Below, piece after piece: positions 29,757 to 42,358 of a stretch of DNA of 64,000 bases. Position 1 is the first letter of the stretch. Every line of letters begins with the position of its first letter. The position numbers were made by a program, and so were the translations under genes. Source of the DNA: Paenibacillus sp. FSL K6-3182 (lineage in GTDB: Bacteria; Bacillota; Bacilli; Paenibacillales; Paenibacillaceae); NCBI RefSeq assembly GCF_037976325.1, contig NZ_CP150265.1, positions 4,025,501-4,089,500 of the forward strand, written 5' to 3'. A model generated the notes under the pieces. It was not told the DNA's origin. It did no database searches and worked only from the letters and a program-made list of their open reading frames with translations.

Positions 29757-31226
29757 TCACGATGAAAGTATAGCCTCTGCTACAAGCTGCCCCGATAGGG
29801 TTACCATCGGTGTTCCCCCGCCTGGATGCGTCGTACCTCCGACAAACCATAAACCCTTTAGATCGGCTTGATTGGAGGGCCTTGCAAAGGTTTGCCGTGC
29901 TGTATTGGAGGAAATGCCATATATAGCTCCGCGGTATGCCGATGTCTGCTTTTGCATTTGGTCAGGAGTGTAGACTGCTGAAAACTCTGAATCATCAATT
30001 AAACCAGACAAGCCATATGCTTCAAGTTTCGTTAAAATGCTTTTCTGATACGATTCGGCTTCTTGCTCCCAGTTCAACAGCGGAGAAGTGTATGGAGCGT
30101 TAGTCAGGATAAACAGGTTGCTGCCTCCAGCAGGGGCCATCCCATCCTCTGAGTAACCTGAATGGCAAATGTAAATTGCAGGGTTCTGAGGTGCTCTTCT
30201 TTGCTGGAAGATGTCGTCAAACTCACTGCCATAGTGTTCTGGGAAAAACACAGTATGATGCAGCAGCTGGCTGTAGGTCTTCTTACTGCCAATGAGGGAA
30301 ACAAAACCTGATAACGATGGCTCATACGATGAGATTTTGGCATTGCTCATGCTTGGTCGCTTTGATTCTTCCAGCAGGTTTTTGCAAATAGCCAGCACAT
30401 CACCATTTGCGATGATGATATCAGCTTTATAGTCCGCCTTGCTCGTAACAACACCTGTGATGCGACCGTTTACTGATGTAATCTGTTGAACACTCTCGGA
30501 CGTATGAATCGTTACACCTAGCTCCTTTGCAAGACGGCCGAATGCCTCCACAATCTGGTAGGTGCCGCCTCTCACTCCATAAATACCTAACTGCAGCTCC
30601 AAATGAGCAAGCATTGCAAAGATAGACGGAGCCGTCCGAGGCGCCGATCCAACATAGGTCGCATACCGTCCAAAGAGTGCAAGTGTATTCGGATGCCTAA
30701 AGTAACGGCGAAGCAGCCGTTCCAATGTCAGCCATGGACGAATCCGCAGCAAACCCGCAAGCAGCCTTACGTCTGCTTTATCCTTCCATGACAGCAGCAG
30801 CCGATTCATGAATAGCTGATCAGCTTGTTGATATAACGCAGCAGCCTCTTTCATGAATGAGCGATACTGCTTCGCATCCTCTGGACTATATGCAGCAATT
30901 TGCGCTTCCATTAGAACGAAATCAGAGCATAAATCAACTGTCGTTCCGTCTGCAAAATAATTTCTCGTACCCGGGTTCAGCGGATAAAAAGTAACGTAGT
31001 CGTCCATTCTTCGACCAACGCTCTCGAATACCTGCTGAAATACATGAAGCATCGTAATCGTGCTTGGTCCACGATCGAAGCGATAACCGCCAAGCTCAAT
31101 GCGCTGAAGCTTTCCGCCGAGTGCTGCCTGTTGTTCAAGCACAGTGATGTGATAACCCGCATATGCCAATCGAATCGCTGCAGATAATCCGCCTAAACCT
31201 CCGCCAATGACAATGACTCGCTTCAC
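29757..31226 (-). CDS. CrtI-family carotenoid oxidase, CrtP-like (copy 2)
   Basis: 489-aa FAD-dependent carotenoid desaturase/oxygenase. Dinucleotide motif VIGGGLGGLSAA at the N terminus; C-terminal signature GLWFVGGTTHPGGGTPMVTLSGQ. The segment HHTVFFPEHYGSEFDDIF and the RGAIYGISS motif are closer to Staphylococcus CrtP (diaponeurosporene oxygenase) than to CrtN. GTG start at 31226 overlaps the glycosyltransferase stop by four bases. Last gene of the leftward crt operon. The substrate end group oxidised cannot be read from sequence. Confidence 0.85.
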   Translation of the reverse strand: MKRVIVIGGGLGGLSAAIRLAYAGYHITVLEQQAALGGKLQRIELGGYRFDRGPSTITMLHVFQQVFESVGRRMDDYVTFYPLNPGTRNYFADGTTVDLCSDFVLMEAQIAAYSPEDAKQYRSFMKEAAALYQQADQLFMNRLLLSWKDKADVRLLAGLLRIRPWLTLERLLRRYFRHPNTLALFGRYATYVGSAPRTAPSIFAMLAHLELQLGIYGVRGGTYQIVEAFGRLAKELGVTIHTSESVQQITSVNGRITGVVTSKADYKADIIIANGDVLAICKNLLEESKRPSMSNAKISSYEPSLSGFVSLIGSKKTYSQLLHHTVFFPEHYGSEFDDIFQQRRAPQNPAIYICHSGYSEDGMAPAGGSNLFILTNAPYTSPLLNWEQEAESYQKSILTKLEAYGLSGLIDDSEFSAVYTPDQMQKQTSAYRGAIYGISSNTARQTFARPSNQADLKGLWFVGGTTHPGGGTPMVTLSGQLVAEAILSS

Positions 31227-32437
31227 GAATACCTCCTCCCCTTCCATTCATAACCAGTGCCATTTAAGCTCGCCCGCCACGAGGCCAACGCAATCGCTGA
31301 CAGCAGAAATATACTTGCAGGTAAACATAGGGATAAGTACCAGGGCTGTCCACTTTTCCTATCAATGATTCTCTTCAGACAAACGCCTAGTAGATAGCAG
31401 AGCGAGCTTGGCAATAAAACAGTTGTAAGCCATCCTTCCGGATATGCATGCATGATAAGCCCAGCTAAACTAATGATCATCATTATCGGAGGCAGTATAT
31501 AAAGCAAGGTGTATATAAACAACATAATCCCAAGCAATAAGCTGCTGCGACCTACACCTGCAAATATATTTTTCTTATAGCCGTTCCAAACCCCTGCAGC
31601 GTTCTGATACATACGCATGGAAATTTGGGGACAAACGTAGGCTAAAGTGACGGGGAGCCCGGCTTTTTTGACTGCACCAGCCAGCTGCATATCATCGACG
31701 AGATGACCTTTGAAGCCAGCATGGCCGCCTGTCGCCCAGTAGCTTTCTGCTGAAATCATCATAAAAGCACCGTGTGCGGCGACGAATTTTGGATCTGGCG
31801 ATTGCCGAACGAGTCGTATCGGCAGATGGCAGGCAATCGAGAAGCTCATCATCGGGACGATAAGCTTCTCCAGCCATGTTCCAGTTTCCTGCTTAGGGAA
31901 ACCGGTCACGAGCCCTTGATCTTGCGCTAACGCGGTGTCAAGCGCATCCGCGAGCGCACCCGGCTCAAGCCGCGCATCCGCGTCGAGGAATAACCACCAT
32001 TCGCCGTACGCCGCTTCGGCGAGCTGATGACATGCGTGCGACTTGCCCAGCCACTCGAACGGCAGCACATCACCGGGCAAAACGCGAACACGGCTGTCGC
32101 CTGCTGCAGCGAGCCGCGCAGCTTCTGCTGTTCCGTCTGTAGAACGATCATCCAGCACCAGCACCTCAATAAATATGGAAGGCTCCAGCAGCACCGATTG
32201 TATACATGCTGCAATGTTATCCGCTTCATTACGCGCCGGGATAAGAACAGACAGCCGTGGTCTAGGTGTAATTCCGTGAGCATGTGGAGCATCAGCTTGA
32301 ATGGACTCAGCTCCTCCTGACAGCCAAACTCGTCCTATACCGCTGCCTCCCAACGAAGGCATTTGCGAGAGGTTCCATAACACAAATAATAGCTGCAGCA
32401 TCAGGGCTGCAGCTACCGTCCAAAAAAAGATTTCCAC
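31223..32437 (-). CDS. Family 2 glycosyltransferase, CrtQ-like (copy 2)
   Basis: About 404 aa. N-terminal membrane helix, GT2 catalytic domain with SVLIPARNEADNI, VLDDRSTDGT, and DADARLEPGAL (DxD), then three C-terminal membrane helices. Probably glycosylates a carotenoid hydroxyl or carboxyl, as CrtQ does in staphyloxanthin synthesis. Overlaps the upstream acyltransferase by about 25 bp and the downstream crt gene by four. Start uncertain between GTG 32437 and TTG 32458. Confidence 0.82.
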   Translation of the reverse strand: MEIFFWTVAAALMLQLLFVLWNLSQMPSLGGSGIGRVWLSGGAESIQADAPHAHGITPRPRLSVLIPARNEADNIAACIQSVLLEPSIFIEVLVLDDRSTDGTAEAARLAAAGDSRVRVLPGDVLPFEWLGKSHACHQLAEAAYGEWWLFLDADARLEPGALADALDTALAQDQGLVTGFPKQETGTWLEKLIVPMMSFSIACHLPIRLVRQSPDPKFVAAHGAFMMISAESYWATGGHAGFKGHLVDDMQLAGAVKKAGLPVTLAYVCPQISMRMYQNAAGVWNGYKKNIFAGVGRSSLLLGIMLFIYTLLYILPPIMMIISLAGLIMHAYPEGWLTTVLLPSSLCYLLGVCLKRIIDRKSGQPWYLSLCLPASIFLLSAIALASWRASLNGTGYEWKGRRYS

Positions 32438-33168
32438 CTTGTCACCCCGTTCATCCAAGCATCAAAAACCTCGTTCGTTGACCGTTTCGCCTTCAGCATT
32501 GATCGATACTCGGCTAGCTCCCCGCGAGCTGCTGCTATTACTGCAAGGCGGTGTTCATTCAGTTGATCCTCCAAAGCCGATTCAAGCATTGTCGTAATGG
32601 TTTTACGTCCCAGCTGCTGCCATGCTCTGTGGATAGGTTTACCGAATTGAAGACTGACTTCTGCCTTTTGATGAAGTCCTAGCGAATAATATGCGGTTAC
32701 GGGCTGAACAATCGTTCCCGGACAGCGCTCCAATAAATAGCCCGCGCCGGTTTGAAATCTTAAAGGTCTACGCTCCAGATGCTCGATATCTCCTTGTGGA
32801 AACAACCAAACTCCATAACCTTGATTTAATAAACTCTCACTATATCGAAGGGAAGCAACGATCGCTCGGCTTGACTTCTTATCAATCGAGAAAGCTCCTA
32901 TTTTGCGAAAAAATCGATACCGCTTCATTTGCTCTTCATCCATCATCATATAGTGTTCACGCGCTGAAGCGTTTGCGATCGCATGATATACAACCATTCC
33001 ATCCCACCAAGAGCTATGATTCATAAGATAGAGCACAGGCTGGCCTTGCGGAGCTGGATCGATCTCACCGCTCAGCTGAAACGAGTGAAAATGTCGTCTT
33101 AACAAATAGTTTTCATTGTATTGCGCGAATATTCGTTTAAACCACTTGCTTGAGTCGGATGCGATCAA
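32413..33168 (-). CDS. PlsC-type acyltransferase
   Basis: About 251 aa lysophospholipid-acyltransferase fold. Catalytic NHSSWWD (NHx4D) and the phosphate-binding-like FPQGDIEH (family form FPEG) are visible. Unlike CrtO it belongs to the PlsC/AGPAT family. Likely esterifies a fatty acid to the glycosyl carotenoid; a lipid role is also possible. TTG at 33168 with AAGGAG nine bases upstream gives a 32-bp overlap with cruF. Confidence 0.8.
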   Translation of the reverse strand: MIASDSSKWFKRIFAQYNENYLLRRHFHSFQLSGEIDPAPQGQPVLYLMNHSSWWDGMVVYHAIANASAREHYMMMDEEQMKRYRFFRKIGAFSIDKKSSRAIVASLRYSESLLNQGYGVWLFPQGDIEHLERRPLRFQTGAGYLLERCPGTIVQPVTAYYSLGLHQKAEVSLQFGKPIHRAWQQLGRKTITTMLESALEDQLNEHRLAVIAAARGELAEYRSMLKAKRSTNEVFDAWMNGVTRWKSFFGR

Positions 33169-33859
33169 TCCTTCCCGCTCCTTCCGCCACAACGATAGCT
33201 GCCAATGCGATGATGAACGGCATCATTAAACCTTCTTTGGCCCCTAAGAGACCAAACATAAACAGCATCATTTGCGTGAGTCTTACAGCCTCGATTCGAA
33301 CGTTAGCCGATACTTCTCTTAAAGGGAACAGAAAAGATATAGCTGCTGATATAACGAACCAACTGATGAAGTTTGCTGCCGGTATCCCGTAGAAATCACC
33401 AGGCTCATGCCAAATCCAGAACTGCCTAGCGAAAGCCACTGGATCGAGTACGAGATCAAAAACAACCGTCCATAAGCCGGTATGAAGCGCACGCGTCCAT
33501 CGATTCGAGAAGGCAGTCATTCGCATCACAGTGACAATGACACCGATCCACGCACAAAATATGGCGAGGGGTACTCCGCCAAGCGAGATGCCAAGTAAAG
33601 ATGTGTATTTGTAGTCTCCAAACGGCCATCCCATCGTCACACCAAGCCATTCTACAGCAAACGTAAGTACCCCAACGAGCATTATTCTACTCCAGCTGCG
33701 ACGGCGCTCCTCGCCCATCATGCCTTCAATATGAATGGCATACAGGGCAAAAAACACGAGAAACAAACCATTGGAAAAGGAAAGCCACGTTGGAACGCCA
33801 ATGGTCAGCATGAGGATTAACCCGAAGCAATACCAAAAAATAAATAGGTAGCGGATCAT
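33137..33859 (-). CDS. cruF: Carotenoid hydratase-like membrane protein, CruF family
   Basis: 240 aa, about seven membrane helices, DUF422 carotenoid biosynthesis family. Hydrophilic conserved pieces: EWLGVTMGWPFGDYKYTSLLG and FDLVLDPVAFARQFWIW, the latter with Asp and Trp residues typical of CruF, which hydrates the psi end group to a tertiary alcohol. Overlaps crtM by four bases. Suggests that the pigment carries a tertiary hydroxyl, which could be the glycosylation site. Confidence 0.8.
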   Translation of the reverse strand: MIRYLFIFWYCFGLILMLTIGVPTWLSFSNGLFLVFFALYAIHIEGMMGEERRRSWSRIMLVGVLTFAVEWLGVTMGWPFGDYKYTSLLGISLGGVPLAIFCAWIGVIVTVMRMTAFSNRWTRALHTGLWTVVFDLVLDPVAFARQFWIWHEPGDFYGIPAANFISWFVISAAISFLFPLREVSANVRIEAVRLTQMMLFMFGLLGAKEGLMMPFIIALAAIVVAEGAGRIDRIRLKQVV

Positions 33860-34731
33860 AGCGATACCGCATTGCTGTCATTAACCTCTGATAAGAGTGT
33901 ATATTTCATTTTTATATTCGTATAAAGCTTTAATTTATTTAATGAGCTGACGATAGCTCGCTTCTTATAGACTTCGTAGTTGGCAGCCTTTACTTCATCC
34001 AAAATTGCTGCATAGAAGCTTGCGGCCAGCTCAACTGAAAAAGCGCTGCTGGCAGGATACGTTTCAAGCCCGCGCAAGCCTCGTGCGAACCAACTGCGTG
34101 AAAGTGTATCCAGCTCTTGCACAAGATGTTGAAATCGTTCGTCGACAACGCCCATTTCGAAGTCGCTATCGGTATAGCGATGACGAGCGAGCAGCTCAAG
34201 CGGCAGGTAACGACGCCCTCTGCTCTGATCTTCGCCAACGTCGCGAACAATGTTTACAATTTGCATGGCTTTGCCAAGCCATATTCCCGCTTCTATTACT
34301 TGAATATCTGGCTGATCATGCAAGACTGGCAATAGCATCTCACCAACTGTTCCGGCAACCAAGTAGCAATAGTCCTCCAACTGCTCCATCGTCTCATAGT
34401 GGGTGAAAGATAAATCCCGGCGCTGTCCCTCCATTTGTCTGAAAAACGGTTTTTTGCTGAGTGGAAAAGTATCAAACAGCCACCGTAAAGAAGGCCATAT
34501 GAAATGATTCGCTGCCTGATCCAACCGGTTAAAATGTTGTTCAAGCTCATCAATGGAATAGGGAGAACGTTGCGGCTCATCTACTGCATCGTCTATCATG
34601 CGGCAGAAAGCATAAATAACGTAAACGGCTTCGCGCCTTGGGCTAGGCAAATAACGAAAAGCTTTATAGAACGATGATGATCCTTTCTGAATCATCGCTT
34701 CACATTGCGCCAAACAGACAGTGGGTTCCAT
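33856..34731 (-). CDS. crtM: Squalene/phytoene synthase family, CrtM-like
   Basis: 291-aa head-to-head prenyl synthase. First Asp-rich motif DDAVD at 47-51 and second motif NIVRDVGEDQSRGRRYLP are intact. In this context (CrtN/CrtP/CrtO homologues) it most likely makes C30 dehydrosqualene from two farnesyl diphosphates rather than C40 phytoene, but chain length cannot be proved from sequence. AAAGGAG precedes the ATG. Only synthase in the cluster. Confidence 0.85.
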   Translation of the reverse strand: MEPTVCLAQCEAMIQKGSSSFYKAFRYLPSPRREAVYVIYAFCRMIDDAVDEPQRSPYSIDELEQHFNRLDQAANHFIWPSLRWLFDTFPLSKKPFFRQMEGQRRDLSFTHYETMEQLEDYCYLVAGTVGEMLLPVLHDQPDIQVIEAGIWLGKAMQIVNIVRDVGEDQSRGRRYLPLELLARHRYTDSDFEMGVVDERFQHLVQELDTLSRSWFARGLRGLETYPASSAFSVELAASFYAAILDEVKAANYEVYKKRAIVSSLNKLKLYTNIKMKYTLLSEVNDSNAVSL

Positions 34732-34735
34732 GAGG

Positions 34736-36178
34736 TCACTCCTTTAACAAATAGTTGGCTAGCAATCTGGCACCTTGCATAACAATCGGGATTCCACCGC
34801 CAGGATGCACCGATGCCCCTACAGCATACAATCCTTTTATCGGATATGGCACGATTTGTGGACGGAACACTGCCGACTGTCCAAATGTTGGCGCGATGCC
34901 GAAGCTGCCCCCATGATAGAGACCATCCGACTCCGCGTCCTGCGGCGTCCTTACTTCCTTCCATTGAATCGCAGCTCTCAAGCCGGGAAAGCCCCTCTTC
35001 TCAGCCTCATCAATTACACGCTCGACTAACGCAGGCACTTCATCCTCCCACGCTACAGAACCGTGCGGCGGAGCGGGAATTAGCATATACATGACGCTCT
35101 CACCCGGAGGTGCTGCTTCCATATCCATAGCTGATGGATAAAATATGTAAAAGGATGGATCTTGCGGAAGCTGATTGTTTTGAAAAATTTGTTTTAATCC
35201 GCTCTGTAAATTGTCAGGCAAAAAAAACTGGTGAACAGAAGCTTGCTCCCACTGTTTGTTTAAGCCTAAATAGATCAAGATTGTTCCTGAAGACGGCTTA
35301 TAGGCTTTCATTGGAACAGTGTTCTTTGGCATCAATGAGGCTAGATGAGGAAAATCACCGTTATATACAATCGTATCATGCAGCATTTCCCTGCCGCCTT
35401 CGTCTATCACGCCAATGCAGCGCCCATTCTCAAGTACCAATTGCTCAATCTGAGTTTCTGTCTTGATTTGAACCCCTCTACTCCGCAGCTCCTCTTCCAA
35501 AATGGATACGATTCCGGCATAACCTCCTTTTACATACCAAATACCATAAGCATGTTCAGCGAAGGGCAATAACGTATACAATCCCGGAGATTGAAAAGGA
35601 GCGCCGCCTATGTATAAGGTTTGTAGAGAGAACGCATCAAGCAGCTTCTCACTTCGGAAATATCGTCCTGCAAAGGAACGCACGCTTTTGTAAGCTTTAA
35701 GCTTCGTTAATAACGTTAAGTTTCGAAAAGTATAGAACTCTCGTTTTCGCAAAAATGGACGTTCCAGAAAAGCTTCCTTTCCTTGTTTAAAAGCCACTTC
35801 CATGTCCGCCATATAACGCTGAAAGCCATCAACTTCCTCTGGAAACATTCGCTCCAGCTCTTCGATCTGTCGCTGCTGATTCCGCCATTTGTGAAATACT
35901 GTGCCGTCTGCATAATGAATACGGTAAAGCGGATCGCATTCGAGCAGAGGTATGCGTGATCGCTCGATTCCAGCTTCCTCCAAAATACTAAGCAGCATTT
36001 CAGGCAACAGCACAATTGTAGGGCCTTGATCGATCCGATAGCCTCCGCCTTCCTGAAAAGCTAATCTACCGCCAAGCCGGGAGCCTCTTTCATAAATAGT
36101 AACCTGCTTGCCTTGCTTGCTAAGCAGCAGAGCTGCTGTTAAACTGCCTATTCCACCACCGACAAAAGCTACTCCCAC
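34736..36178 (-). CDS. CrtI-family desaturase, CrtN-like (copy 2)
   Basis: 480-aa FAD protein: FVGGGIGSLTAALLL, YERGSRLGGR and C-terminal GLYAVGASVHPGGGIPIVMQGA. The central SLQTLYIGGAPFQSPGLYTLLPF segment resembles CrtN-type desaturases. GTG start behind GGAGG; overlaps the upstream crtN by ten bases. Likely adds double bonds to dehydrosqualene, or acts on one half of the molecule. Confidence 0.83.
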   Translation of the reverse strand: MGVAFVGGGIGSLTAALLLSKQGKQVTIYERGSRLGGRLAFQEGGGYRIDQGPTIVLLPEMLLSILEEAGIERSRIPLLECDPLYRIHYADGTVFHKWRNQQRQIEELERMFPEEVDGFQRYMADMEVAFKQGKEAFLERPFLRKREFYTFRNLTLLTKLKAYKSVRSFAGRYFRSEKLLDAFSLQTLYIGGAPFQSPGLYTLLPFAEHAYGIWYVKGGYAGIVSILEEELRSRGVQIKTETQIEQLVLENGRCIGVIDEGGREMLHDTIVYNGDFPHLASLMPKNTVPMKAYKPSSGTILIYLGLNKQWEQASVHQFFLPDNLQSGLKQIFQNNQLPQDPSFYIFYPSAMDMEAAPPGESVMYMLIPAPPHGSVAWEDEVPALVERVIDEAEKRGFPGLRAAIQWKEVRTPQDAESDGLYHGGSFGIAPTFGQSAVFRPQIVPYPIKGLYAVGASVHPGGGIPIVMQGARLLANYLLKE

Positions 36179-37719
36179 CGAAAGGCCTCCTTCTGTGAGT
36201 GGATGACTGCTGAAGCTCCGCCAACCCTTATACGTTCACTATCATCCTGCGCCATAAGTAGACGGGTACTAATGCGCGCTGATTCGAAGATCGTCGGCAA
36301 GCCGCTGCCAGGGTGAGTTCCTCCCCCTACAAGCCAACAATTAGCGAGCTCTTCGAAGCGGTTATGTGGACGAAGCTTCATCATTTGATCCAGTGAATGT
36401 GCAAGATTAAACGTTGCTCCTTCATAGACATGATGATCATTGCGCCAATCTAATGGTGTAATGATGGCTTCCTCCTCGATGTCAGCCGAGAAGCCTGCAA
36501 GCTCTGGCTCCTGCTCCATACGCTCGATCATCTTTTCTCTAACGAGTTTCCGCTGTTCCTCCCAACTGATATTCGCAGTCAGATTCGGTACCGGCATAAG
36601 CGCGTATAAAGCGGTTTTCCCAATAGGCGCCAGCGTTGGATCGTTAAGCCCTGGATTATGTATATAAATAGATGCGTCTGAAGACAGCATCTTTTTTGTC
36701 ATGATTTCATGTACGTTTTGGCGATAGTTGTTGGCAAATAAAATGTTATGGTGCGGCATATGTATTTCACGATTTACTCCGAGGTAGAGCATATAAGTAG
36801 AGCAAGAATATTTCTTCTTGGCAAGCTTTGCCGGACTGTATTTCTTAAGCTCACCCGGTTCAAACAAGTGGTTCATAGCGGTTGCAAAATCAGCATTGAT
36901 GATGATATGATCCGCTTCTATTTTTTCACCATTTTCCAAAAGCAGACCCACTGCTTTTCCGCTGCGGCTCAGCACTCTTTGCACACCGCAGGAGGTAACA
37001 ATCTCGCCATCGTACTCGCGAATCACTTCAGCCATTGCCTCGCAGACGCGGTTAACGCCTCCAACGGGATGAAAAAGGCCAAATTTATGTTCCAAATATG
37101 CGAGAATTGTAAATGTACCCGGGCATTCCCATGGCGACATGCCTAAATATTTTGCTTGGAAAGTAAAAGCATATTTCAGCCTTTCATCTGTAAAATAACG
37201 TGAAAGTCTGTCATACACGCTTCCTACCGCATTCAGCCGCGGCAGCGCTTGAAACACATCCCGAGAAATATAGTCGCTTAGCTTGCTGAAAGGCCGCTGC
37301 AGCAGCGGGGAAACCTTGTTATATTTCTCCCCCTCCTCTTTCATAAACTGAAGATAACCTTTACCGTTGCCGGGAAATAGCGCCTCGATCCTCTCAACCA
37401 TCTGCTTCTCGTCCCGTGTCGGTGAGAATGCAACATCGCCGAATTGCAGCCTATATAGCGGATCAAGCGCAATGAGCTCAACATAGTCGTACAAGGAGCG
37501 ATTTACAGATTGAAACATTTCTTCAAGCAGGTGCGGCATCATGAAAAACGTAGGTCCTCGATCAAAAAAATACTCCCCCAGCTGAAGCCTGGAGGTCCTC
37601 CCACCTATATAGGGCTGCTTCTCATAGACGGTAACTCGGTAACCTCGGCCAGCCAGCTCCATTGCAGCTGCTAAACCGCCAGGGCCTGCTCCAATAACGG
37701 CCACGATTCCCTTGTCCAT
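36169..37719 (-). CDS. CrtI-family desaturase, CrtN-like (copy 1)
   Basis: 516-aa FAD-dependent desaturase: VIGAGPGGLAAAMELA, YEKQPYIGGRTS, FDRGPTFFMMP and C-terminal WLVGGGTHPGSGLPTIFESAR. The HHNILFANNYRQN and HNPGLNDPTLAPIGK blocks are common to phytoene/dehydrosqualene desaturases. ATG at 37719 follows AAAGGAG by 7 nt. First gene behind the candidate CarH operator, so it heads the main light-controlled operon of at least seven overlapping genes. Confidence 0.86.
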   Translation of the reverse strand: MDKGIVAVIGAGPGGLAAAMELAGRGYRVTVYEKQPYIGGRTSRLQLGEYFFDRGPTFFMMPHLLEEMFQSVNRSLYDYVELIALDPLYRLQFGDVAFSPTRDEKQMVERIEALFPGNGKGYLQFMKEEGEKYNKVSPLLQRPFSKLSDYISRDVFQALPRLNAVGSVYDRLSRYFTDERLKYAFTFQAKYLGMSPWECPGTFTILAYLEHKFGLFHPVGGVNRVCEAMAEVIREYDGEIVTSCGVQRVLSRSGKAVGLLLENGEKIEADHIIINADFATAMNHLFEPGELKKYSPAKLAKKKYSCSTYMLYLGVNREIHMPHHNILFANNYRQNVHEIMTKKMLSSDASIYIHNPGLNDPTLAPIGKTALYALMPVPNLTANISWEEQRKLVREKMIERMEQEPELAGFSADIEEEAIITPLDWRNDHHVYEGATFNLAHSLDQMMKLRPHNRFEELANCWLVGGGTHPGSGLPTIFESARISTRLLMAQDDSERIRVGGASAVIHSQKEAFRWE

Positions 37720-37751
37720 ACAAATTCTCCTTTCCAATAAAACGAATTAAC

Positions 37752-37800
37752 TATACAAACATTATACAAACATAATACATACTCGATAATAGTCTGTAAA
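37752..37800 (-). promoter_or_regulatory. crt promoter with three tandem 11-bp repeats (candidate CarH operator)
   Basis: Minus-strand promoter: -35 TTTACA (37795-37800), 17 bp, -10 TATTAT (37772-37777). On the plus strand three adjacent 11-mers, TATACAAACAT (37752-62), TATACAAACAT (37763-73) and AATACATACTC (37774-84), cover the -10 and start region. Tandem 11-bp repeats with a TACA core are the known CarH operator design. The regulator gene ends 14 bp away. Confidence 0.75.
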
Positions 37801-37813
37801 GTTAATTTATTTA

Positions 37814-38740
37814 TTAGAATTGGAAACTTAACCCTAAAACCTTATCTTTAAACCATCTTTCCCATTCTTCTTGATTGCCATTCGGCAGCACCCAATCTGA
37901 ATAAGGTTCTGGTACGCCTTGGAAACCTTGTCCGCCTAAAACTATCTCCAGATCAGCATGATGAGCCAATAAACGGTTTATAAAAGCAAAAGTGGGTTCC
38001 ATCAAGTTTGCGTCAGTTAACGATATACATAGGACTCGAATTTGCTGCGACTTAATCAACTCTGTAATGCCATCCTCCGGAGTATCTGGTCCAAGATACA
38101 GCACGTCAGCCCCTTTTTTACGCAAAAATAAAGAAAATAAAAGTAGTCCTGCTTGGTGATGTTCACCAGATGGACATAAAGCAAGCATGCGGGGCAATCG
38201 ATTATCAATCGGAAAAAGTTGAAAGAAACTAAGACAACGCTGAATCACGAACTGTGTAATAAAGTGCTCCTGCGCGACAGAAGCTCTGCCTTCTTCCCAC
38301 TCCGTGCCGACTTTAATCATTACTGAAAATAAGATTTGATAGATCATAATGTCATAGCCATACATGGAAAACCCTAAATCAACCATCGTTTTTGCTTGTT
38401 CCGTACGAAAGTTGCAAAGCGTGTTATATAAGCGCTCCACCATCTCTTGATGAGCCTCTTCAGCCCCAACTATAGCATGGGTCTCTGTCTTCGTTTCCAA
38501 CATACGCTCGCGCAAAAGCTGCTGTTCCTTTAGCAGTCTAACAGCTTGCGAAATCGTTACACCTTTCTCATCCGTCTGGTTTTTGAGGAAGCGTAAATCC
38601 TCCATATTTTTATCATCAAAGAGGCGATAGCCTGTTTCTGTCCGAATGGGCTTAATCGCTTCATATCTTGTTTCCCAAGCACGAATCGTAACTGCAGGAA
38701 TACCTAGCAGTGTTGAAGCTTGTCTGATTGTGTACATCAT
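37814..38740 (-). CDS. carH: CarH/LitR-type B12-dependent light-sensing MerR repressor
   Basis: 308 aa. MerR DNA-binding domain at 1-75 (MYTIRQASTLLGIPAVTIRAW); four-helix bundle with W148 and E158-H159 (the Wx9EH motif that caps adenosylcobalamin); cobalamin domain with E193-x-H195-x-x-G198 (lower axial His). All hallmarks of the adenosylcobalamin photoreceptor CarH. In the dark such proteins form DNA-binding tetramers that block crt promoters; light breaks the Co-C bond and releases them. Lies between crtO (TAATG overlap) and the crtN operon it probably represses. Confidence 0.9.
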   Translation of the reverse strand: MMYTIRQASTLLGIPAVTIRAWETRYEAIKPIRTETGYRLFDDKNMEDLRFLKNQTDEKGVTISQAVRLLKEQQLLRERMLETKTETHAIVGAEEAHQEMVERLYNTLCNFRTEQAKTMVDLGFSMYGYDIMIYQILFSVMIKVGTEWEEGRASVAQEHFITQFVIQRCLSFFQLFPIDNRLPRMLALCPSGEHHQAGLLLFSLFLRKKGADVLYLGPDTPEDGITELIKSQQIRVLCISLTDANLMEPTFAFINRLLAHHADLEIVLGGQGFQGVPEPYSDWVLPNGNQEEWERWFKDKVLGLSFQF

Positions 38741-39240
38741 TACATTTCACTCTTTTCCTTCAGTTTCCAAAAAATGCGCTGCAGCCGAAAACGATTATAG
38801 CGCTGTACAATGATAAATGGGACATTGGCGACAATGGCATAAACGATCATGATCCAGCCATATATGCTTTCGTTCCATAGGAAAAATAGTGGCGCAGGCA
38901 GCATCGATATGATGTGAGTCCACTCTCCGCGCCGCGTTTCAAGTATAAAGGTCTGCAAGTAAGCTTTCTCAAGGACAGCTAATTTTTTCTTGGCAAAGCC
39001 TCCTTGAAACAAGCTTCCTCCGTCTGGCAGTTTGTCTTTCCAAACACGAATGAATATCAATCGTTCATAAACCAATTCTTCTCTGCGCCTCTTTGTCTGA
39101 GGCTTCATGCGATCAGCAGTGCGACTGAACCAAGCATCAGGCATTTTCAAAAACAAATAGGACACACCCATATGCACAAGCAGCCATGCAAAAATATTTA
39201 CAACCAATGTCCAAAACGGTGAAAATTCAAAAATTCTCAC
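38740..39240 (-). CDS. crtO: CrtO-like glycosyl-carotenoid acyltransferase
   Basis: About 166 aa, close to Staphylococcus CrtO (165 aa). Conserved blocks RVWKDKLPDGGSLFQGGF, ILETRRGEWTHIISMLP and ANVPFIIVQRYNRFRL match that family, which transfers a fatty acid to the sugar of the glycosyl carotenoid. Two to three membrane helices. GTG at 39240 overlaps the glycosyltransferase stop (GTGA); a longer reading from 39285 is less likely. Confidence 0.88.
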   Translation of the reverse strand: MRIFEFSPFWTLVVNIFAWLLVHMGVSYLFLKMPDAWFSRTADRMKPQTKRRREELVYERLIFIRVWKDKLPDGGSLFQGGFAKKKLAVLEKAYLQTFILETRRGEWTHIISMLPAPLFFLWNESIYGWIMIVYAIVANVPFIIVQRYNRFRLQRIFWKLKEKSEM

Positions 39241-40373
39241 TTTCGCCCGCTTCCCTTCATAGTTGAAATCGAGCGACCTTTCCATGTGACCTTGCGGCGA
39301 AAAAAGGTTTGCAGCGTTGAACTAGCGAAGATTCCCATAAAAAAGAGAAGCGGTATAGGAAACAGGAAAGCGGTCTGGAAACCAAAATTTCCAGCTCGGC
39401 TTAACTGTATATTTATTAACAAAACATAAGCGAGGTAGCTGATTATTCCTATCGTTATATGGTCGCTTGATCGCCAAATTTGAGGATTCAACCATTGTGT
39501 AACAACCGTAATCGAACCAGTTAGCCACCAGATTATAGCTAGTAAACGCAGCGTTGTCGTAGAAGATGCACCTGATGCGAAGCTTTTACTCCAGCCTGCA
39601 CACAATTGCCGAATGCCTTCCGGGTACATTCGGAAAGCAATAACGCTTTTTCCGCTACAATTTCGAACCGTTTGCTGCTCAGCAAATAGAAGGCCTAAGC
39701 TGTAATTTTCGAGAATACGCTCACGAACAGCCTCGTGCCCACCTGTTTGAAAATATGATTCTCGGGTACAGACTATACAAGGACCGAAAGCGCCTACAGC
39801 CTTCTTCTTTGTTGCCGCAGCAGTTTGAGGTGCTCCAACCGCTGCTAAGACGATGATGTTGAAGAAAGCTGACAACCATTCATAGGGCCGCTTCATCTTG
39901 TGGTAAGGCTGGATCGAAAGCAGCCCGTTCTGCTTTGAATGGGCCTCAGCCAGCACCGCCAACCCAGCATCCTCTAAACAAGTATCTGCATCAAGGAAAA
40001 TAAGTAAATGACCGCTTGCTGCCTGCGCGCCATTCCAGCACGCCCAGCTTTTACCAAGCCAACCATCCGGCAGCTCGCCCGGGTTTACAACGATTGCACC
40101 AAATGATTCAGCGATGGCTGCTGTTCGATCAGTTGATCCATCATCTACTACAATCACTTCATATGGAGCGAACTGCTGACCCTTTATTGATGGAAATAAC
40201 TGTGTCAGGTTTCTCTCTTCATTTCTAGCTGGAATGATAACTGAAATGCTTGGGAGACTCTTTCTATCGTTCTTTGTGAAAAGCACCGAGTCCTCTTCTA
40301 ATGGTCGGATTTTGTTCAGCAGCCAAGCACCACAAATAAGTCCGCCAAGCAACAGCACAACATTCCCAATCAT
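39237..40373 (-). CDS. Family 2 glycosyltransferase, CrtQ-like (copy 1)
   Basis: About 378 aa. GT2 domain with SVIIPARNEERNL, VIVVDDGSTDRT and FLDADTCLEDAG (DxD), membrane helix at the N terminus and several at the C terminus (for example FPIPLLFFMGIFASSTL). Same architecture as CrtQ of staphyloxanthin synthesis; it immediately precedes crtO, its natural next step. ATG at 40373 with AGAGGA 8 nt upstream is preferred over TTG 40403, which lies only 2 nt from its ribosome site. Confidence 0.83.
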   Translation of the reverse strand: MIGNVVLLLGGLICGAWLLNKIRPLEEDSVLFTKNDRKSLPSISVIIPARNEERNLTQLFPSIKGQQFAPYEVIVVDDGSTDRTAAIAESFGAIVVNPGELPDGWLGKSWACWNGAQAASGHLLIFLDADTCLEDAGLAVLAEAHSKQNGLLSIQPYHKMKRPYEWLSAFFNIIVLAAVGAPQTAAATKKKAVGAFGPCIVCTRESYFQTGGHEAVRERILENYSLGLLFAEQQTVRNCSGKSVIAFRMYPEGIRQLCAGWSKSFASGASSTTTLRLLAIIWWLTGSITVVTQWLNPQIWRSSDHITIGIISYLAYVLLINIQLSRAGNFGFQTAFLFPIPLLFFMGIFASSTLQTFFRRKVTWKGRSISTMKGSGRK

Positions 40374-40852
40374 AGATCTAATCCTCTGTATGAAAGGTAC
40401 CAAAACTCCTTATATGACTCGTTAATCCATGTTTTCTTATACAAACAGCTCATTTTCCCCAAAGTTGTGTACCACCTTTCACCAGGCTGATTAGGTCATT
40501 CCATTTGGCAGTTAATAATGGTTATACAAACTTACAACCACAGCCCTATCTTTGGTGAAAATGATGGCATTCAAACTATACAGCCATTATTCGCTCTTTT
40601 TATAGCCTCATTCTCGTCGTTTAACGACGAAATAGCAGGAGCTATCCGAAGATTTGATCCTGCAAAAGCTGCATGTTATAGGTAAAATTTGTTAATACTT
40701 AAAATGGAAAAGTGTTGGTTAAATGCATATCACGCATTCTGCTTATCGCATTAACCTTTTACGTTAGTTCTACAACGATTATACGATTGTGTATATAGTT
40801 TGTCATCTGCATCGTTTCGGCTAAATGACCAATGATGAGAGGAAGTGCTCCT
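40374..40852. other. Intergenic region between crtQ and crtP
   Basis: Non-coding. Contains isolated TATACAAAC motifs at 40438-40446 and 40523-40531, a TATACAG at 40577, a 17-bp palindrome TCGTCGTT-T-AACGACGA (40614-40630) and the crtP promoter with degenerate 11-bp repeats (40769-40801). It must carry the leftward promoter for crtQ-crtO-carH as well. Confidence 0.6.
40769..40801 (+). promoter_or_regulatory. crtP promoter with degenerate 11-bp repeats
   Basis: -35 TCTACA (40769-40774), 17 bp, -10 TATATA (40792-40797). The same 33 bp divide into 11-mers TCTACAACGAT, TATACGATTGT and GTATATAGTTT, a weaker version of the operator at 37752. Control by the CarH-like repressor is inferred. Confidence 0.5.
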
Positions 40853-42358
40853 ATGAGCAAAAAGATTATTGTCGTCGGAGGCGGACTCGGCGGACTATCA
40901 GCTGCTATTCGCCTCTCTGTAGATGGGCATCAAGTGACCATATTAGAAAAAAATGAACGCGTTGGCGGCAAATTAAACATAAGATCAGGGCAAGGCTACA
41001 CTTTCGATACAGGTCCTTCTATTCTGACGATGCCTTGGGTGCTCGAACAGCTGTTTGAAAGTGCTGGCCGCAATCTAGAGGATTATATGAAGCTGGTTCG
41101 TGTTGAACCTCAGTGGAGAACTTTTTTCGAAGATGGGGTAACACTTGATATAACAGGTGACTTCCCTGACCTAATCAAGCAATTCGAACAAATCTCACCG
41201 GTTGATGCACAGCAATTCCTCTCTTATTTGGATTATTGTCAGCAAATGTATCAGCTCAACACAAAAAGCTTTTATAACAAGAGCCTTAGTGGTCTGAGCG
41301 ACCTACGGCGTCACCACAGTATGAAGGAACTGTTAGCGATGGACCCGATGAAGACGATGCATCAGACGACAAACCGCTTTCTGAAGGACAAGCATTTGCG
41401 TCAATTGTTCGATTTTTTCATCATGTATATCGGTTCCTCGCCTTATGCCGCTCCCGCTGTGCTGTCACAATTAATCTATGTACAAATGGGGCTTGGCATC
41501 TATTATGTAGAAGGCGGTATGTACCGAATTGCGGAGGGTATGCTTAAGCTGCTTGATGAGCTCGGTGTGGAGGTTCGCACTTCAGCTCCAGTTGCTCAAA
41601 TGAATACAGTCGACCAAACCGCAACAGGAGTAACTTTAGAAGATGGCAGCGTAATAGAAGCTGATCTGATTGTGTCTAATCTTGAGGCAATTCCAGCGCA
41701 TCAGACACTGCTGCAGCATCATCCGAAATCGGCCGACCGCGTAAAGGATTTAGCTAAATACGAGCCTACTGTATCAGGACTTGTGCTGCTTCTTGGCGTG
41801 GATAAAGTGTATGAACAGCTTCTGCACCATAATTTCTTCTTCTCTGAAGATCCAGATAAAGAGTTCAACGATATATTTGTCGAAGGCAAACCTACAGATG
41901 ATCCAACAGTGTACATCGGGGTTTCAAGCAAAACCGATCCTGGACAGGCGCCGCAGGGCAAAGAAAATCTATTTGTGCTTACTCATGTGCCGCCGCTCAA
42001 ACCTGGAGAAAGCTTTGAGTCACAGAAGGCGGCTTACAGAGACCTAGTTCTGAATAAGCTCGAACGTATGGGATTAACGGAGCTGAGACAGCATATTGAG
42101 TTTGAATATACGTTCACTCCAGATGATATTCAGCAGCTTTATGGTTCTAATGGCGGTTCCATCTACGGCATCGTAACGGACCGCAAGCTTAACGGCGGCT
42201 TCAAAATTCCAAGCAAAAGCAAGCTGCTCGATAATCTTTATTTCGTTGGCGGATCAACGCACCCCGGTGGCGGTGTCCCGATGGTCACTTTATCCGGACA
42301 ACTCACCGCTGACCTCATTAAAGAGCAATTGAGCATTGCTGCAAAATCCGTCATGTAG
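40853..42358 (+). CDS. crtP: CrtI-family carotenoid oxidase, CrtP-like (copy 1)
   Basis: 501 aa. FAD motif VVGGGLGGLSAA, TFDTGPSILTMPW, MYIGSSPYAAPAVLSQL and C-terminal NLYFVGGSTHPGGGVPMVTLSGQ. LLHHNFFFSEDP, DDPTVYIGVSSKTDP and SIYGIVTDRKLNGGFK follow Staphylococcus CrtP almost block by block, so oxidation of a terminal methyl group is the best guess. ATG at 40853 behind GAGAGGAAG; an ATG at 40832 is inside the leader. It is divergent from the rest of the cluster and ends in a terminator. Confidence 0.86.
   Translation: MSKKIIVVGGGLGGLSAAIRLSVDGHQVTILEKNERVGGKLNIRSGQGYTFDTGPSILTMPWVLEQLFESAGRNLEDYMKLVRVEPQWRTFFEDGVTLDITGDFPDLIKQFEQISPVDAQQFLSYLDYCQQMYQLNTKSFYNKSLSGLSDLRRHHSMKELLAMDPMKTMHQTTNRFLKDKHLRQLFDFFIMYIGSSPYAAPAVLSQLIYVQMGLGIYYVEGGMYRIAEGMLKLLDELGVEVRTSAPVAQMNTVDQTATGVTLEDGSVIEADLIVSNLEAIPAHQTLLQHHPKSADRVKDLAKYEPTVSGLVLLLGVDKVYEQLLHHNFFFSEDPDKEFNDIFVEGKPTDDPTVYIGVSSKTDPGQAPQGKENLFVLTHVPPLKPGESFESQKAAYRDLVLNKLERMGLTELRQHIEFEYTFTPDDIQQLYGSNGGSIYGIVTDRKLNGGFKIPSKSKLLDNLYFVGGSTHPGGGVPMVTLSGQLTADLIKEQLSIAAKSVM

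Follow-up and report, generated by a model that had tools for sequence, protein, structure and literature searches.

A candidate CarH operator over the predicted promoter of a Paenibacillus carotenoid operon and its conservation in related carH-crtN loci

The CarH operators of Bacillus (Priestia) megaterium are reportedly the subject of a study by Fernandez-Zapata et al. (2018). CarH operators consist of tandem 11-bp repeats of the form nnnnTnnACAn, which overlap the -35 or -10 element (PMC9304148). The same source gives three repeats for Thermus, where one repeat includes the -35, and four, or three plus a degenerate one, for B. megaterium; binding extends to operators that have only one or two full repeats. 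A literature search, with subscription papers mostly beyond reach, yielded no publication on a Paenibacillus CarH operator among the matches listed. In the present study, we analyzed a 64-kb stretch of Paenibacillus DNA (the window), in which an array of such repeats (site A) is flanked on the right by carH and on the left by the start of crtN, the first of seven carotenoid genes, both on the minus strand (Table 1). Judging from the comparison with related loci, site A is very probably where a vitamin-B12 light sensor docks to keep the pigment genes off in the dark.

Table 1. Features of the crt cluster and of its putative control sites in the window
Feature	Position	Strand	Remarks
Seven crt genes downstream of site A	29757..37719	-	Three crtN/crtI-family oxidoreductases, a phytoene/squalene synthase-type gene (crtM), a CruF-like gene, an acyltransferase and a glycosyltransferase
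Site A, repeat 1, TATACAAACAT	37752..37762	+	Full CarH-type repeat (TnnACA)
Site A, repeat 2, TATACAAACAT	37763..37773	+	Full repeat (TnnACA)
Site A, repeat 3, AATACATACTC	37774..37784	+	Degenerate (leading T to A); holds the -10
Alternative -10, TATAAT	37761..37766	-	Junction of repeats 1 and 2; same element in loci L016 and L017
Predicted crt-operon promoter, TTTACA-N17-TATTAT	37772..37800	-	Consensus scan 10/12; -10 (37777-37772) inside site A
CarH, MerR and B12-binding domains	37814..38740	-	308 aa; Wx9EH and B12 motifs intact
crtO-type acyltransferase	38740-39285	-	Upstream of carH, same strand
crtQ-type glycosyltransferase	39237-40403	-	Upstream of carH, same strand
Isolated TATACAAAC	40438..40446	+	Near the crtQ start; candidate, possible auxiliary half-site
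Second isolated TATACAAAC	40523..40531	+	Upstream of crtQ; candidate, possible auxiliary half-site; also in Paenibacillus sp. FSL A5-0031 (L005)
Site B	40758..40785	+	Three phased repeats (TTTACG, TCTACA and TATACG, separated by TTAGT and ACGAT), two with ACA changed to ACG
Predicted promoter toward crtQ-crtO-carH, ATGACA-N17-TATAAT	40778..40806	-	Scan 11/12; -10 inside site B
crtN2, crtN/crtI-family oxidoreductase	40832..42358	+	Divergent; downstream of site B

Repeats and promoter upstream of the crt operon

At site A, two copies of TATACAAACAT and one of AATACATACTC abut head to tail on the plus strand with zero gap, as the original prediction had described. That prediction had also extended the feature over 37752..37800 and taken all three units as matches to the CarH repeat. 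The array itself is real, but it stops at 37784, positions 37785-37800 being the spacer and the -35 of the predicted promoter; repeats 1 and 2 are full, and repeat 3 is not. The third repeat reads AATACA, with the TACA core present and the leading T absent, and is thus degenerate with respect to the published nnnnTnnACAn; as a full CarH repeat it was rejected. A deviation of this kind in the repeat bearing the -10 recurs among relatives. The stretch 37752-37784 is thus a tandem array of full and degenerate 11-bp repeats of the published form.

The seven crt genes overlap or are separated by gaps of a few bases, and so presumably form an operon. The -10 of the TTTACA-N17-TATTAT promoter predicted in front of them lies within repeat 3, so that the repeats do cover it, as had been claimed, and the array overlaps a promoter element of its presumed target. 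The consensus scan by itself proves little, since it returns nine promoter-like sites in the 3.3 kb from 37600 to 40900, against an average of 6.7 in shuffled sequences; the best of the nine is the promoter at site B. An alternative -10 where repeats 1 and 2 join has counterparts in L016 and L017, two loci in which repeat 3 of site A is lost. In L017 the junction TATAAT, located 17 bp from TTGCGA, is the best -10; in L016, TATAAT lies 17 bp from TTGATT, a -35 that sits in the end of carH, and a scan beginning after carH picked TATAAC instead. In both of these loci the TATAAT at the junction looks like the -10.

Loose versions of the motif are found at chance level. Three TnnACA units in phase with at most one mismatch occur 37 times in the 7.56-Mb genome and 34 times in a backward-read control, and genome-wide counts were rejected as proof of site A on that account. 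TACA-N7-TACA-N7-TACA and TATACA-N5-TATACA each have a single match in this genome, which is site A, and each also has one in the control. In other genomes, TATACA-N5-TATACA gave one match at site A in G033 (control 0), two matches with one at site A in G049 (control 0), four with one at site A in G043 (control 2) and a single match elsewhere than site A in G029 (control 0). Within the 87-bp region, 53 of 20000 dinucleotide shuffles contained three phased repeats of site A quality on either strand, and 1 of 20000 contained an exact 11-bp tandem copy. The strength of the case for site A as a putative CarH operator is comparative and does not lie in the loose motif alone.

Conservation of phase and strand in carH-crtN loci

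We searched for carH in 51 genomes of the genus, 394 of the family and 398 of the class, together with a named collection (7 loci); 146 of the 394 family genomes have a CarH-family protein at E <= 1e-25. The 152 carH loci used here are a hand-made selection spread over genera and not every match; weak partial MerR matches, L005 and L012 (same species or self) and the Thermus locus L116 were left out. Removal of redundancy reduced them to 117, and in 53 of these the gene after carH is a crtN resembling the one at 36169. The TACA-spacing test was applied to the 51 of these with a spacer of at least 60 bp (L077 and L115 are too short), and the strict TnnACA test to 52 (L077 is too short).

On the strand antisense to crt, a TACA pair at exactly 11 bp was found in 50 of the 51 regions, which are related by descent and thus do not represent 50 independent events; the rule is post hoc, because it was picked after the alignment had been viewed, and shuffle and other-strand controls were run alongside. 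In 200 sets of dinucleotide shuffles the mean was 0.63 and the maximum 4, and on the sense strand none of the 51 regions has such a pair. Antisense spacings of 22 and 33 bp occur in 28 and 17 of the regions, respectively, and every remaining spacing from 5 to 34 bp in zero to four. A strict rule that had been set earlier asks for two or more full TnnACA repeats. At period 11, 28 of 52 regions pass it (24 fail it), compared with 1 of 52 on the sense strand; all other periods between 7 and 16 yield zero to six regions each. The original prediction had named loss of the 11-bp period in relatives that keep this gene order as evidence against itself. Such loss was confined to L100, the sole testable region without the TACA pair, and to L077, in which carH abuts crtN with zero spacer and no site. 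P. marchantiophytorum (L007) and P. alginolyticus (L008) are near relatives, and the 3 and 4 substitutions in their respective arrays all spare the TnnACA positions. Site A of strain CC-CFT747 (L011) has TnnACA at spacings of 11, 12 and 11, with a further one in between.

The predicted promoter is also conserved. The pattern T[TA][TG]ACA-N17-TATNAT was found in 35 of the 51 regions (mean 0.04 and maximum 1 in 100 shuffles), the fourth position of its -10 being occupied by T (18 regions), G (14) or A (3). Of these 35 regions, 32 (32 of 51 overall) have the -10 within a repeat that is followed by another at 11 bp; the repeat bearing it is usually the degenerate one, as it is in the window. When promoters were ranked by a simple score, the -10 of the best one overlapped the strict TnnACA array in 21 of 28 regions.

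These counts bear on two other explanations of the repeats. The loose motif is common and slippage can yield an exact 11-bp duplication; however, a chance tandem duplication in an AT-rich spacer would hardly recur with identical phase and strand in 50 of the 51 regions when 200 shuffles never rose above four, and we regard it as extremely improbable. The region is AT-rich and a DNA pattern by itself names no protein, so that the repeats could also be explained by a different regulator or by AT-rich units whose phasing curves the DNA. This too is improbable, if less so, since TACA is conserved beside carH on one strand only (50 of 51 regions at 11 bp, against none on the other strand) and the repeats match the published CarH repeat (PMC9304148).

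Conserved phase, strand and promoter in the relatives, together with the signatures of the neighbouring protein, strongly support a CarH operator over the crt promoter, and it is highly likely that the adjacent CarH uses site A as its operator to repress the seven-gene crt operon. The repeats, their phase and strand, the overlap with the predicted promoter, the protein signatures and the conservation were observed directly. CarH binding, its dependence on B12 and light, and repression at site A are what we infer, by the following steps. In the dark, the DNA-binding domains of adenosylcobalamin-bound CarH oligomers would occupy one 11-bp repeat after another across the -10 and so keep RNA polymerase out; on illumination the Co-C bond would break, the oligomer would loosen and the promoter would open. 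The switch appears to be of a known type, and the relatives examined appear to use it too. The reading of a single promoter becomes a testable regulon: the carH-crtN loci examined share the operator phase and the promoter, which allows binding sites to be predicted in them.

Site B and the control of the whole cluster

A second array, site B, lies between the divergent crtN2 and crtQ-crtO-carH and had been overlooked in the earlier note. The ACA to ACG changes in two of its repeats are common to the window and L005, and in L006 (strain FJAT-28004), L007 and L008 site B consists of three full repeats. The full-repeat form is located upstream of the divergent crtN2 in L007 and L008 and upstream of carH itself in L006. 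Site B of L011 has five phased repeats, four of them full; several cluster genes of this locus are split over frames, perhaps by sequencing error, and the pieces were kept apart. An aldehyde dehydrogenase gene (L007 1318-2865) is located between site B and crtQ in L007, and in the window crtQ and crtN2 are separated by about 430 bp.

Sites of this kind are frequent upstream of carH. Within the 250 bp before the gene, 41 of the 53 carH-crtN loci and 36 of 50 others have an antisense TACA pair at 11 bp; a sense-strand pair was found upstream of carH in 18 of the 50 loci without the carH-crtN arrangement. The window contains four copies of TATACAAAC, all in the crt cluster and on one strand (expected 0.48, maximum 2 in 100 shuffles). 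Those at 40438 and 40523 were set aside as further operators, being without a phased full partner.

The original prediction had the whole crt operon shut through site A. The part that places a CarH operator over the crt promoter stands, but control of everything through one site is too simple, given that site B exists upstream of crtQ-crtO-carH and crtN2 and that a terminator scan between carH and crtN found none, so that read-through into the crt genes is possible. Both sites are probably required to control the cluster as a whole, and site B would let CarH control its own operon together with the divergent desaturase crtN2. One may go further and propose that the repeats of site A bind CarH while pigment control runs mainly via site B, with site A as a lesser site or a roadblock. 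The best promoter score of the region (11/12) at site B, the lack of a terminator-like site between carH and crtN in the scan, and the frequency of sites upstream of carH (in both groups of loci) agree with this proposal. However, site A is the better preserved of the two in the window species and has a matching promoter conserved over it in 35 of 51 regions, whereas site B carries the two ACA to ACG changes in the window. We therefore consider it unlikely that site B is the main point of pigment control, although the odds of this proposal overlap with those of repression at site A, which we prefer.

The CarH protein and comparison with described systems

The product of the window carH matches CarH of PDB 5c8d (7e-26) and is the only match in the window genome at E <= 0.001. 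It has an N-terminal MerR domain (PF13411, 1e-15), and both B12-binding Pfam domains score above their cut-offs. Its recognition helix is of the RxWERRY type; it reads RAWETRY, thus RxWExRY and not exactly RxWERRY, and RxWExRY is found in 96 of 103 CarH homologues. The adenosyl-contacting motif Wx9EH is present as WEEGRASVAQEH (101 of 103 homologues), and the B12 motif D/ExHx2G-x41-SxT/V-x22-27-GG is complete; the full motif occurs in 62 of the 103 homologues and its [DE]xHxxG part in 101. The protein is 97% identical to CarH of L005. The NCBIfam CarH equivalog NF052513 was the best of nine families with 125 bits, below its cut-off of 400, which makes the protein a CarH-family relative rather than the equivalog itself.

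The residue after the Trp of Wx9EH is Glu in the window CarH, where Thermus CarH has His132. Glu was found at this position in 52 of the 53 carH-crtN loci and in 95 of the 103 homologues; among the remainder, one has His, five have other residues and two lack the motif. His132 of Thermus CarH is the upper ligand in the light state and is found in many, not all, CarH proteins (PMC9304148), and other B12 photoreceptors vary at this position (PMC11796333). The Thermus H132A protein was mostly tetrameric in light, whereas an earlier study cited there saw disassembly (PMC10442372). We give an even chance to the idea that a CarH lineage of Bacilli stops binding DNA in the light but dispenses with the bis-histidine ligand step of Thermus CarH: Glu occupies the His132 position in most homologues examined, while the operators are conserved. 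If this is true, these proteins would have to get from Co-C cleavage to DNA release in some other way. The Glu offers a natural test of whether the CarH photoresponse needs the bis-His ligand switch.

Strain FJAT-28004 (L006), whose CarH is 82% identical to that of the window, may provide a decayed control, its crt locus being gone. No crt gene was found at 1e-6 in its 9.9-kb carH locus, where chrA and cyd genes flank carH and what appears, by eye, to be the end of the last crtN-like gene follows it; carH and a full site B are kept (L006 4400-5700). The single PF00494 gene of this genome scores like the second, unlinked PF00494 gene of the window genome and unlike crtM. In the L006 CarH, W is replaced with R in Wx9EH and G with E in HxxG. 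The dN/dS ratio of carH between the window and L006 is 0.135, mostly purifying (of other pairs tried, one gave no dS and one a saturated dS); thus, any decay of this CarH would be recent or local. This single case fits a sensor that is losing its purpose along with its targets.

Among described clusters, that of Paenibacillus aurantius has similar genes, with a "cobalamin B12-binding domain-containing protein" between CrtNa and CrtO; the accessible part of that account gives no operator or light control (PMC10673419). The Thermus thermophilus operator likewise has three tandem 11-bp repeats, and the same repeat scan on Thermus HB27 recovered three full repeats upstream of carH. We read the -35 in a Thermus repeat as TTGACA, on the strand that runs toward carH, whereas the window repeats read antisense and hold the -10; the proteins differ in the His and Glu described above. 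The myxobacterial CarH/CarA operators resemble site A in mixing full and degenerate 11-bp repeats at Pcrt, and have the -35 within a repeat where the window has the -10 (PMC9304148). Compared with B. megaterium, which has four repeats or three plus one degenerate, site A has two full plus one degenerate, the cluster is of the crtM/crtN type with carH inside it, and site B is degenerate in the window species. Nevertheless, B. megaterium, whose operators are treated in PMC9304148 and PMC8156234, is similar in being a Firmicute with tandem 11-bp TnnACA repeats, overlap with the -35 or -10, and more than one operator.
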